From the NCBI RefSeq assembly GCF_003003215.1, contig NZ_PVUF01000001.1:186001-250000 (forward strand): DNA of 64,000 nucleotides, written 5' to 3'. The position numbers and the translations under genes are program-made. This DNA comes from Tritonibacter scottomollicae. GTDB taxonomy: Bacteria; Pseudomonadota; Alphaproteobacteria; Rhodobacterales; Rhodobacteraceae. The first letter of the stretch is position 1; every line of letters starts with the position of its first letter. Below are positions 53,556 through 60,285 of this stretch, piece by piece. The notes under the pieces were generated by a model. The model did no database searches and had not been told where the DNA came from. It worked only from the letters and a program-made list of their open reading frames with translations.

Positions 53556-53936
53556 GAGAAACTGTCCCGTCTGGCTGCAATTGTCCCTTGCTAGTACGCC
53601 TATATCAAACAGGAGGTTAAAGGCTTTTCTGTTACGAGAGCGATAAATGATGAAGTTTTTCCGATTTTGTGATCACAGGGTTGAGGCGTGTGATCACATA
53701 TCGAAAGCGACTAAATTTTAGCGATTCGCGCAATCCTTGGCGGCGCGTTTCGGCTTTGCTGCAGCGCGTCAAGAGCCTTCCAGCGACTGGAGGTCATTCT
53801 GTTTCATTCCGCATTCATGACCTTGTCCGAGGCTGAGCGGGCTGTCTTGGAGTGATCGGTAGCGGTGTGGGGGAGGCGCAAGTCTGACTATGGTCCACCG
53901 GGTGTGGGGCCGCTCTCACAAGGGGCCGATCCCGCC
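53556..53936. other. 381-bp spacer: suc operon leader and control region
   Basis: This contains the sucC leader (53556-53660, with A+T-rich stretches including GATATAGG read toward sucC), the paired palindromes at 53668-53698, an A+T-rich patch near 53700-53725, and about 200 bases without recognisable features before the convergent GNAT stop. No gene is supported. Confidence 0.6.
53668..53698. promoter_or_regulatory. Paired operator upstream of sucC
   Basis: Two perfect 10-bp palindromes TGTGATCACA at 53668-53677 and 53689-53698 lie exactly 21 bp apart, two helical turns. Identical sites with identical spacing lie upstream of sdhC. They are presumed binding sites for one regulator acting on both TCA operons. 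Confidence 0.78.
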
Positions 53937-54464
53937 TTAGGTTTGCGGCAGGCGATAGACGTCGACCTCACGTTCGCAGGTCGGGTCGATTGTGCGGCGG
54001 TCAAACACCATGCCAAGCTTTTGCATGATACGTGCCGAGGCGCTGTTCCCGCGCTGAGTGATGCTCACGATATCTGTGAGCCCCAGTCTGTCCGTGCCAA
54101 AGGCCAATGCGGCCGCAGCCGCTTCGCTTGCGTAACCTTGCCCCCAGCTTGGTCTTGAGAACCGCCAGCCGATCTCGACGGCGGGCAAGACCTCCGGCAA
54201 GAAGTCGGGTCGCGAAAATCCGGTGAACCCGATCAGATCACCAGTTACCTTGGATTGAACAGCGAACAGTCCAAAGCCGCGCTCTGCCCATTGGGTCTGA
54301 AAGGATGTGATGTTGGCTGCCGCTTGGTCTGCCGTCCGGGTCGCGCCATTGCCGATGTAGCGCATGACCGCCGGATCACCGCAGATCGCTGCAAAAGGGG
54401 CGTGATCTTCGGGCGTCCAGCCTCGGAGCAGCAGGCGCGTTGTGTTGAGTTCGGGCGGTGTCAT
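53937..54464 (-). CDS. GNAT family acetyltransferase (RimJ-like)
   Basis: This 175-residue protein starts PELNTTRLLLRGWTPEDHAPFAAIC and has the GNAT core with IGWRFSRPSWGQGYASEAAAAALAFG (about 94-119, the acetyl-CoA loop) and NSASARIMQKLGM. It belongs to the N-acetyltransferase-3 (RimJ/RimL) type; the substrate is unknown. The ATG at 54464 is chosen over a start at 54512, which would add a cysteine-rich, unlikely N-terminus. It is downstream of mdh on the same strand. Confidence 0.88.
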   Translation of the reverse strand: MTPPELNTTRLLLRGWTPEDHAPFAAICGDPAVMRYIGNGATRTADQAAANITSFQTQWAERGFGLFAVQSKVTGDLIGFTGFSRPDFLPEVLPAVEIGWRFSRPSWGQGYASEAAAAALAFGTDRLGLTDIVSITQRGNSASARIMQKLGMVFDRRTIDPTCEREVDVYRLPQT

Positions 54465-54560
54465 GGCGTGGTTTAAGCATGTAGAGCGACCGCAGCAAAG
54501 CGCGCAGTGCACACATGTCTTCAGGCGGGCGGTCTGGCGGCGCCGACATCTGCCATGAAA

Positions 54561-54592
54561 CGAAAAAAGCGCCCCGTGTGGGACGCTTTTGG
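54561..54592 (-). terminator. Terminator after mdh
   Basis: On the minus strand AAAAGCGTCCC-acac-GGGGCGCTTTTTT forms a stem with one mismatch and ends in a T-run. It lies 24 bases past the mdh stop. Confidence 0.82.
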
Positions 54593-54613
54593 TTTTTGAA
54601 ATATGTGCGGTGT

Positions 54614-55576
54614 TTACGCCAGCGAGCTGTCGATGCCCTTGCAGGCCTCGACGAGGCCTTTCACGGCTTTGACGGATGCATCGAACATTGTCTGTTCGTC
54701 CGCGTTCAGCTTGATGTCCACCACGCGCTCGATACCACCAGCACCGATCACGGTGGGCACGCCGACATACATGCCGTTGAGGCCCAGTGCACCGTCCACA
54801 TATGCGGCGCAGGGCAGCACGCGCTTCTGGTCTTTCAGGTAGGCTTCGGCCATCTCGACCGCCGAGGTTGCCGGGGCGTAGAAGGCAGAGCCGGTTTTCA
54901 GCAGGCCAACGATTTCTGCGCCACCATCACGGGTGCGCTGCACGATGGCGTCCAGCTTGTCTTGTGTGGTCCAGCCCATCTGCACCAGGTCGGGGAGCGG
55001 GATGCCGGCGACGGTGGAGTAGCGCACCGACGGCACCATGGTATCGCCGTGACCGCCCAGAACAAATGCGGTGACGTCTTTCATGGAGACTTTGAATTCC
55101 TCGGCGAGGAAGTGACGGAAGCGTGCGGAATCCAGCACACCTGCCATGCCGCAGACTTTTTCATGCGGCAGGCCGGAGAATTCGCGCAGCGCCCAGACCA
55201 TCGCATCGAGCGGGTTGGTGATGCAGATCACAAAGGCGTTCGGCGCGTTGTCGCGGATGCCTTCGCCGACGGATTTCATCACCTTGAGGTTGATGCCCAG
55301 CAGGTCGTCGCGGGACATGCCCGGCTTGCGCGGAACACCTGCGGTGACGATGCAAACGTCGGCGTCTGCGATATCTGCGTAGTCCTGCGTGCCCTTCAGG
55401 CTGGCGTCAAAGCCCTCGGAAGGACCGGATTCGGCAATGTCCAGCGCTTTGCCTTCAGGGGTACCTTCGGCAATGTCGAACAATACGACGTCGCCAAGTT
55501 CCTTGAGGGCTACGAGATGCGCGAGGGTGCCACCGATCTGACCTGCGCCGATAAGGGCGATTTTGGGTCGTGCCAT
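54614..55576 (-). CDS. mdh: Malate dehydrogenase
   Basis: This 320-residue NAD-dependent enzyme oxidises malate to oxaloacetate. The NAD loop is [13 protein letters not shown] (6-18), followed by [17 protein letters not shown] (substrate arginine), NPLDAMVW and the catalytic histidine in [10 protein letters not shown]. This is the lactate-dehydrogenase-like form typical of alphaproteobacteria. The ATG at 55576 is the family start. It is a separate unit from sucC, with its own terminator; no TGTGATCACA site lies upstream of it. Confidence 0.97.
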
Positions 55577-55991
55577 GGGATAATCTCTCCGGTCCGGTTG
55601 ATTTCTGACCAGATGCCTAAGACGTTCGGTTCCGCTTCGCAAGTGTTCTGCGTTGCAGCATCCGCGCGGTCTGAGCCTGTTTTACGTTCGTTTGCGACAA
55701 TCCTTGCAGTTTTAGCGAAGGATGCTTTGGATATTGAACAGGCATGCACGTCTCGCACGCCGGTTCGGTATTGCCGTGACCGTGGCCTGCGGAGCGGATG
55801 TCAGCAGTCATTTCCTGCGGTTGCCGGTCCGGCAGAGACGTGGACCGGCGAATCAGATTGCGCGAACAGGGTGCGATGCTGTTTGCGGCGCAGGCCGGTG
55901 CATTTCGATGCCCGCCTTCAGCCAGCCTGGGCCCCGGATATCCAGGGGCCCGGATATGCGCCGGGTGTCCTGCGGGACGGGACGCGATAGA
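55577..55991. other. 415-bp spacer upstream of mdh
   Basis: This contains the mdh promoter region and, near 55930-55952, a GGGCCCC-(9)-GGGGCCC hairpin close after the stop of the next minus-strand gene, possibly its terminator. No gene is supported on either strand. Confidence 0.5.
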
Positions 55992-59349: not shown

Positions 59350-59359
59350 CCGGCGGGGC

Positions 59360-59382
59360 CGCCCCGTCCCTTCGGGGCGTTT
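59360..59382 (+). terminator. Terminator after mch
   Basis: CGCCCCG and CGGGGCG form a 7-bp stem over a 6-base loop followed by TTT. It lies 10 bases past the mch stop. The T-run is short, so strength is moderate. Confidence 0.55.
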
Positions 59383-59515
59383 GGCTCTCATCGCCGCATC
59401 TTGGTGGTTCAAGACTGCAAAGCTTGGGTCTGGCGTGGTGACATCTGCGCGAGGCTGCAGTCGCAGCATGGCTTTGATCTTGCCGGGAGGTCCGCGTCGC
59501 CGCAGTCTTTACCTC

Positions 59516-60190
59516 ATGCGTCGCCTGTTAGTCACAGCTCTGTGTGGTCTTTGTAGCCTGATACCGGGTGGCCTGCGCGCGTGTGACCTGGCGCTGGTAT
59601 TGGCCGTGGATGTGTCCGGATCCGTCGATCCAAAGGAATATCGGTTGCAGATGGACGGGCTGGCGCGCGCACTGCGGGATCCCCTGATCAGCGAAGCGCT
59701 GGTGCAGGCCCGTGCCGAAGTGGCCCTGGTGCAATGGAGCGGCACATCACGGCAGGTGGTGTCGGTGCCCTGGACCTCAATCCCTGATTTCGCCGCGCTG
59801 GATGCCTTTACGCAGGCGGTGGAGGACACCTCGCGTAAATGGCGCAATTACTCGACCGCGATCGGCGAGCTGTTGGGGTATGTTCTGCCAATGTTTGACG
59901 CGGTGCCGTCCTGTCAGCGTCGTGTGGTGGATGTTTCGGGCGATGGCCCGTCAAACGAGGGGATCAACCCGGAGACGCTGCGGTCGCGGCTGACTGCTGC
60001 TGGTGTCACCGTGAATGCCATCGCGATCGAGGCCAGCGAGGAGGATCTGGCCGCCTATTTCTTTGAGCATGTGATCCACGGTCCGGGCGCCTTTGTGGTC
60101 TATGCGGCGCGTTTCGAAGACTACCCGGAACAGATCCGCAAGAAGCTGCTGCGCGAAGTCGTGAAGCAGACAGCAACCCTTTCGCGCTAA
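59516..60190 (+). CDS. DUF1194 (von Willebrand factor A-like) exported protein
   Basis: This 224-residue protein has a signal peptide (about 1-22, ending GGLRA) and a vWA-like domain starting CDLALVLAVDVSGSVD, where the MIDAS DxSxS is at about 33-37. AEVALVQWSGTSRQVVSVPW and VVDVSGDGPSNEG (second metal loop) follow. I recognise DUF1194; its function is unknown. The ATG at 59516 is preferred, as sequence further upstream lacks a signal. It has its own 160-bp leader after the mch terminator. Confidence 0.85.
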   Translation: MRRLLVTALCGLCSLIPGGLRACDLALVLAVDVSGSVDPKEYRLQMDGLARALRDPLISEALVQARAEVALVQWSGTSRQVVSVPWTSIPDFAALDAFTQAVEDTSRKWRNYSTAIGELLGYVLPMFDAVPSCQRRVVDVSGDGPSNEGINPETLRSRLTAAGVTVNAIAIEASEEDLAAYFFEHVIHGPGAFVVYAARFEDYPEQIRKKLLREVVKQTATLSR

Positions 60191-60254
60191 AAGCACATGC
60201 GACTCACTGAGGGTTTGCGAGTTTGTTTCTGACTATTCCGCTAGGGATACAGTT

Positions 60255-60285
60255 TGTGATCACAGCGATCTGGCTTGTGATCACA
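60255..60285. promoter_or_regulatory. Paired operator upstream of sdhC
   Basis: Two perfect TGTGATCACA palindromes at 60255-60264 and 60276-60285 lie 21 bp apart, matching the pair before sucC in sequence, spacing and distance (115 bases from the sdhC start here, 113 from the sucC start there). Confidence 0.78.

Follow-up and report, generated by a model that had tools for sequence, protein, structure and literature searches.

The analyzed window, a 64,000-nucleotide stretch of the Tritonibacter scottomollicae genome, carries suc and sdh genes preceded by closely similar paired sites. The 10-bp palindrome TGTGATCACA occurs without mismatch at four places in the window, arranged as two pairs, one upstream of sucC and one upstream of sdhC, and nowhere else. 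In both pairs, the spacing from start to start is 21 bp, and the nearer edge is separated by 113 bases from the start of sucC (53555, minus strand) and by 115 bases from that of sdhC (60400, plus strand). The features discussed below are as follows.

46345 to 49296, minus strand: sucA, 2-oxoglutarate dehydrogenase E1, further downstream of sucC in the same direction (ORF; same neighbor in relatives)
50207 to 51094, minus strand: sucD, downstream of sucC in the same direction (ORF; same neighbor in relatives)
52362 to 53555, minus strand: sucC, succinyl-CoA synthetase beta subunit, first gene behind its pair (ORF; named from the sequence-only reading and from resemblance to the sucC loci of relatives)
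53668 to 53677, no strand: predicted AkgR-type operator, site of the sucC pair nearer to sucC (from sequence and from pairs of the GTGATCAC core in 268/295 family genomes)
53689 to 53698, no strand: predicted AkgR-type operator, outer site of the sucC pair (from sequence)
60255 to 60264, no strand: predicted AkgR-type operator, outer site of the sdhC pair (from sequence)
60276 to 60285, no strand: predicted AkgR-type operator, site of the sdhC pair nearer to sdhC (from sequence)
60344 to 60371, plus strand: putative sdh promoter, with GTGACA and TAAAAC separated by 16 bases (GTGAC(A/T) conserved in relatives)
60400 to 60783, plus strand: sdhC, first gene behind its pair (ORF)
60795 to 61166, plus strand: sdhD (ORF; start chosen inside a longer ORF)
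61190 to 62998, plus strand: sdhA (ORF)

The sdhB gene lies outside the window (L034, ORF 484-1353). Judging by their translations, a glycosyltransferase-like gene (51113-51952) is located inside the suc series and a sulfotransferase-like gene (62999-63850) between sdhA and sdhB. The window holds one further TGTGATCACA site with a single mismatch, at 44090; the resulting five sites within one mismatch compare with a mean of 1.72 in shuffled sequence, where 1 of 100 shuffles reached five, in a test that counts sites only and ignores the pair geometry. No TGTGATCACA site within one mismatch was found upstream of mdh in the window scan. A sequence-only reading of this DNA had reported the four perfect sites, their two pairs, the 21-bp spacing, the distances of 113 and 115 bases, and the lack of a pair at mdh, and the recount agreed with it throughout.

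Distribution of the paired sites

When up to three mismatches are allowed, the pair pattern occurs at three places in the 4.68-Mb source genome, of which the sucC and sdhC pairs are perfect. The third, with two mismatches and the same N11 gap, precedes a clpA-like gene (G000:C3:352357-352387; L003, L160); it was rejected as a regulon member because a genome of the same genus, G293, has only two such pairs, which are taken to be those before sucC and sdhC. Perfect TGTGATCACA sites number seven in the genome, four of them being the two window pairs. Of the three elsewhere, two fall within long open frames that read as DctM-like and beta-glucosidase-like, and the last is located 9 bp before the start of a 220-amino-acid GntR/FCD protein on contig C19. 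With so few perfect sites, and two of the three outside the window in open frames, a wider regulon in the source genome was rejected on this class of sites. Sites with at most one mismatch are more numerous (118, versus 15 for a reversed control that contains CTAG and is not regarded as a fair comparison); these were individually listed in part, and weak regulon members are possible among them.

The sequence-only reading had proposed a scan of related genomes for the pair and an examination of its conservation before sucC and sdhC, and both came out in its favor. The exact pair (N11 between sites, at most two mismatches) is present in 250 of the 295 sampled genomes of the family, with none for the reversed control in the table, and a pair of GTGATCAC cores separated by any gap of 4 to 34 bases in 268, compared with a single genome (G243) for the reversed control. 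All 30 relative loci that were fetched place the pair before one of the same genes, namely, sucC (22 loci), sdhC (7 loci), or sucA (1 locus). The spacing is nearly fixed: the 75 listed pairs from 37 genomes comprise 65 with a 21-bp spacing, 5 with 20 bp, 2 with 18 bp, and one each with 13, 27, and 31 bp.

Several genomes depart from this pattern. In G177, the pair lies 134 bases before sucA (L029), and sucC is found elsewhere on the contig with no site within 400 bases upstream, a natural rearrangement that separates the targets and keeps the pair at sucA. G135 (L292) has three sites in a row before sucC, 160 to 108 bases upstream and 21 bp apart each, the outermost with two mismatches to the 10-mer. 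G265 (L155-L159) carries 11 core pairs, and its GTGATCAC copies also form local clusters, with as many as seven in 4 kb, several of them apparently within open frames.

In a sample of the class, core pairs were detected in 23 of 289 genomes, 4 of which belong to the same family. Outside the family (19/285), the spacing is 21 bp in G440 and G495 and 22 bp in G308; among the others, it varies, and the control matches as well (41 in G367, 1 in G524). At an E value of ≤1e-30, the regulator described below was found in 14 of the 289, that is, the same 4 family genomes and 10 others with identity of at most 42%, including G336 and G405, which also hold the core pair. In G440, a twin at 21 bp lies just before a GntR/FCD gene whose product is 30% identical to that of the source genome (L103:992-1903), and both adjoin a gene that reads as TonB-receptor-like. 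In G405, a GntR/FCD gene (L120:1441-2278) and an aldehyde dehydrogenase gene flank a twin at 24 bp. Because these twins adjoin distant GntR/FCD genes, a branch of regulators that includes such distant proteins may share the site.

A GntR/FCD regulator that accompanies the pairs

The gene with the perfect site at its start (G000:C19:51689-52348, minus strand) encodes GntR and FCD domains, is the probable source-genome ortholog of AkgR, as argued below, and lies on a contig separate from that of the suc and sdh operons. The genome encodes 21 FCD-type regulators. Among 113 aligned orthologs, the conservation of N141, H145, H188, and D210 reaches 99% or more, and in the light of FCD structures these residues may line an effector or metal pocket. 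Of the solved structures, Escherichia coli McbR (4p9f; E value, 2.4e-22) is closest in sequence. A GTGATCAC core lies within -150 to +60 bases of the regulator start at 64 of 116 ortholog loci, an uneven sample of 40 best-scoring or chosen genomes plus 76 others in which species may repeat. It is absent from the other 52, Cereibacter among them, including L136 and L187, which have little upstream sequence; 45 listed loci of these 52 lack even a site with two mismatches. The site at the regulator's own start is lineage-limited and possibly new.

An ortholog of the regulator was detected at an E value of ≤1e-30 in 274 of the 295 family genomes. The core pair is missing from 17 of the 21 genomes without the regulator versus 10 of the 274 that have it (both present, 264; neither, 17; regulator only, 10; pair only, 4; Fisher P = 2.6e-17). 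With a cutoff of 1e-60, chosen after a gap was seen in the E values, the same four counts become 261, 23, 4, and 7 (P = 3.1e-24); both tests treat genomes as independent of kinship. The four genomes with a pair and no detected regulator are G096, G114, G256, and G264 (completeness 77, 100, 93, and 77, respectively), G264 being assigned by elimination. The four with a strong regulator match (E ≤ 1e-60) and no core pair are G040, G147, G155, and G291: G040 and G291 have a degenerate partner at the same 21 bp, and no true sucC was found in G147 (only a 51% match) or G155 (no match).

The same association is seen in the regions upstream of sucC. The gene was searched for in 64 chosen genomes (those without the regulator or with a weak match to it, the exceptions to the rule, and others), and 56 were compared; G122, G142, G155, and G172, with no sucC match at 1e-100, and G021, G147, G114, and G273, with a paralog or cut sucC only, were left out. 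The 31 regions from genomes whose regulator reaches 1e-60 comprise 27 with two cores at a spacing of exactly 21 bp, that of G286 with a 20-bp spacing, those of G040 and G291 with one core plus the degenerate partner 21 bp away, and that of G177, in which no site is present. The pair is lacking in 15 of the 18 regions from genomes without the regulator (the other 3 are from G096, G256, and G264) and present in 2 of the 7 from genomes with a weak match (G019 and G033). Three pair-less genomes, G017, G109, and G157, keep one degenerate site each, at -116 or -139, positions at which others have their sites, and these look like decay. On the SucC tree, in which 4 of 53 inner branches are supported, the regulator label changes 13 times and the pair label 11 times. 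The supported branches yield one independent contrast; the best tree with all its branches yields 13 regulator contrasts, most of them on poorly supported branches, in which the sucC pair changes the same way in 7 to 9 (mean, 8.0) and the opposite way in none, the remainder showing no difference. The regulator and the pair co-occur, with kinship weakly controlled.

Identity of the regulator and competing explanations

Largely by gene order, we take AkgR to be RSP_0981; genome G051, whose PufM is identical to the Rhodobacter sphaeroides sequence, is presumably R. sphaeroides. The gene order in G051 is sucA, sucD, sucC, pair, mdh, pair, sdhC, sdhA, sdhB, GntR, and the Cereibacter johrii record L163 shows the same order from its cut sucC on; in both, the regulator gene lies about 0.75 kb beyond sdhB and is read from the opposite strand. 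The G051 regulator is the sole match at E ≤ 1e-60 in that genome and is 75% identical to the source-genome regulator. This order fits the tags RSP_0962-0967, 0974-0976, and 0981 in the available text of PMC4344238, and it is by this order, not by the strain 2.4.1 record, that the G051 GntR gene is equated with RSP_0981. The same text predicts control of sucCD, sdh, and the alpha-ketoglutarate dehydrogenase genes by RSP_0981, a regulator of the GntR family, and also names NtrC for succinate dehydrogenase (PMC4344238). The accessible part of PMC6365646 places GTGATCAC among the sites of AkgR, which it calls an activator.

The source genome has what the AkgR regulon calls for: a regulator orthologous to RSP_0981 by its GntR and FCD domains, its identity to the G051 protein, and the place of the latter behind sdhB; the GTGATCAC palindrome, in four perfect sites; and the targets, with pairs before sucC and sdhC, sucD and sucA downstream, and sucA itself behind the pair in G177. 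We consider it highly probable that the two pairs are operators, as predicted here, of the AkgR ortholog encoded elsewhere in the genome.

The competing explanation that survives best, albeit an improbable one, is that a different, undescribed regulator reads the pairs and that the single site at the GntR gene makes GntR merely another of its targets. The presence of 21 FCD-type regulators in this genome, the absence of the site from 52/116 GntR loci, and the four genomes with pairs and no detected GntR would suit it; however, the operons are those predicted for RSP_0981 and the palindrome is listed among AkgR sites, as far as the texts of PMC4344238 and PMC6365646 are available. Furthermore, pair and GntR co-occur, and distant GntR/FCD genes adjoin GTGATCAC twins (L103, L120). 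Sites of the CRP/FNR type, acting through cAMP or oxygen, would share the half-site TGTGA, but a CRP site has the form TGTGA-N6-TCACA, with six bases required between the half-sites, and at all four places the half-sites touch, so that this explanation, which the sequence-only reading had also discarded, is rejected as having next to no probability. Chance, or a functionless scattered repeat, is scarcely credible either: the many GTGATCAC copies of G265, some in open frames, speak for it, but the core pair recurs in 268/295 genomes versus 1 for its control, and 30/30 fetched loci precede sucC, sdhC, or sucA.

Probable control by AkgR bears on the interpretation that the sequence-only reading had offered. 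Its conserved pairs before sucC and sdhC, its exclusion of CRP, and its lack of a pair at mdh stand. Its statement that no described regulator uses this pair gives way, since the sites fit AkgR by the targets in PMC4344238 and the palindrome in PMC6365646, as far as these texts go. The suggestion of an unreported TCA-cycle regulon is likewise unsupported, given that only three further perfect sites exist, one at the GntR gene, and that operons and palindrome were already tied to RSP_0981/AkgR in those sources. The pairs are real and strongly conserved and most likely represent an instance of an already described regulon. Possibly new are the near-fixed 21-bp twin geometry and the G177 type of genome, with a pair at sucA and a pair-less sucC elsewhere.

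Possible mode of action and comparison with known systems

In 9 of 13 sdhC regions (of 15, L021 and L162 were left out, and some are from close relatives), GTGAC(A/T) lies 87 to 89 bases downstream of the pair start, with a -10-like element 16 to 19 bases on. The sucC regions have a TTTAAC-like element near 77 to 78, in conserved T columns, the commonest position being 78, in 6 of 31 (of 32 regions, L162 was left out); the window's own sucC region had its best promoter score elsewhere and not at the position of its relatives. If these are -35 elements, the pairs would lie roughly 90 to 120 bp upstream of the transcription starts, and the distances for the sucC and sdhC promoters would be about one helical turn apart. 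Such an upstream position would be more in keeping with activation than with obstruction of RNA polymerase.

From sequence, we infer the following mode of action. One dimer of the source-genome ortholog would bind each 10-bp palindrome, so that a pair would carry two dimers two helical turns apart; the near-fixed 21-bp spacing fits cooperative binding on one DNA face. Binding at the pairs would activate both the sdh and the suc/2-oxoglutarate dehydrogenase operons. The single site 9 bp before the regulator's start codon would allow the regulator to repress itself. Generalized to a family-wide AkgR, in which two dimers cooperate on a near-fixed 21-bp twin along one helical face before suc and sdh and the lineage-limited site at the start of its gene provides negative feedback, this would be an undescribed geometry for an activating GntR/FCD regulator, a proposal that is tentative and somewhat doubtful as a whole. 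A literature search for paired FadR-family operators found none; TGTGATCACA appears in PMC12724174 as part of a primer, and the other papers with TGTGATCACA in their text have, by title, eukaryotic subjects.

With the motif tied to a named regulator, there is no need to look for a new TCA regulator. The AkgR regulon is extended, by sequence, to most sampled genera of the family, and an exact operator geometry is supplied. Natural experiments are at hand in the regulator-less genomes with pair-less sucC regions (15/18), in the single degenerate remnants, and in the G177 rearrangement.

Among known systems, the deoxyribonate cluster of Pseudomonas simiae offers a parallel: its GntR/FCD regulator PS417_07240, 32% identical to AkgR, is the proposed binder of the palindrome GTGATCAC, but it has other target genes, and a single palindrome is described in the available text (PMC6365646). 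The AkgR regulon of R. sphaeroides is another, with the same operons (PMC4344238) and the same GTGATCAC palindrome (PMC6365646) in the parts of these sources at hand, and with both pairs present in G051. Unlike in Cereibacter, the regulator gene of the source genome is not beside sdh, and a perfect site precedes its start, whereas Cereibacter L133 and L163 have none there.
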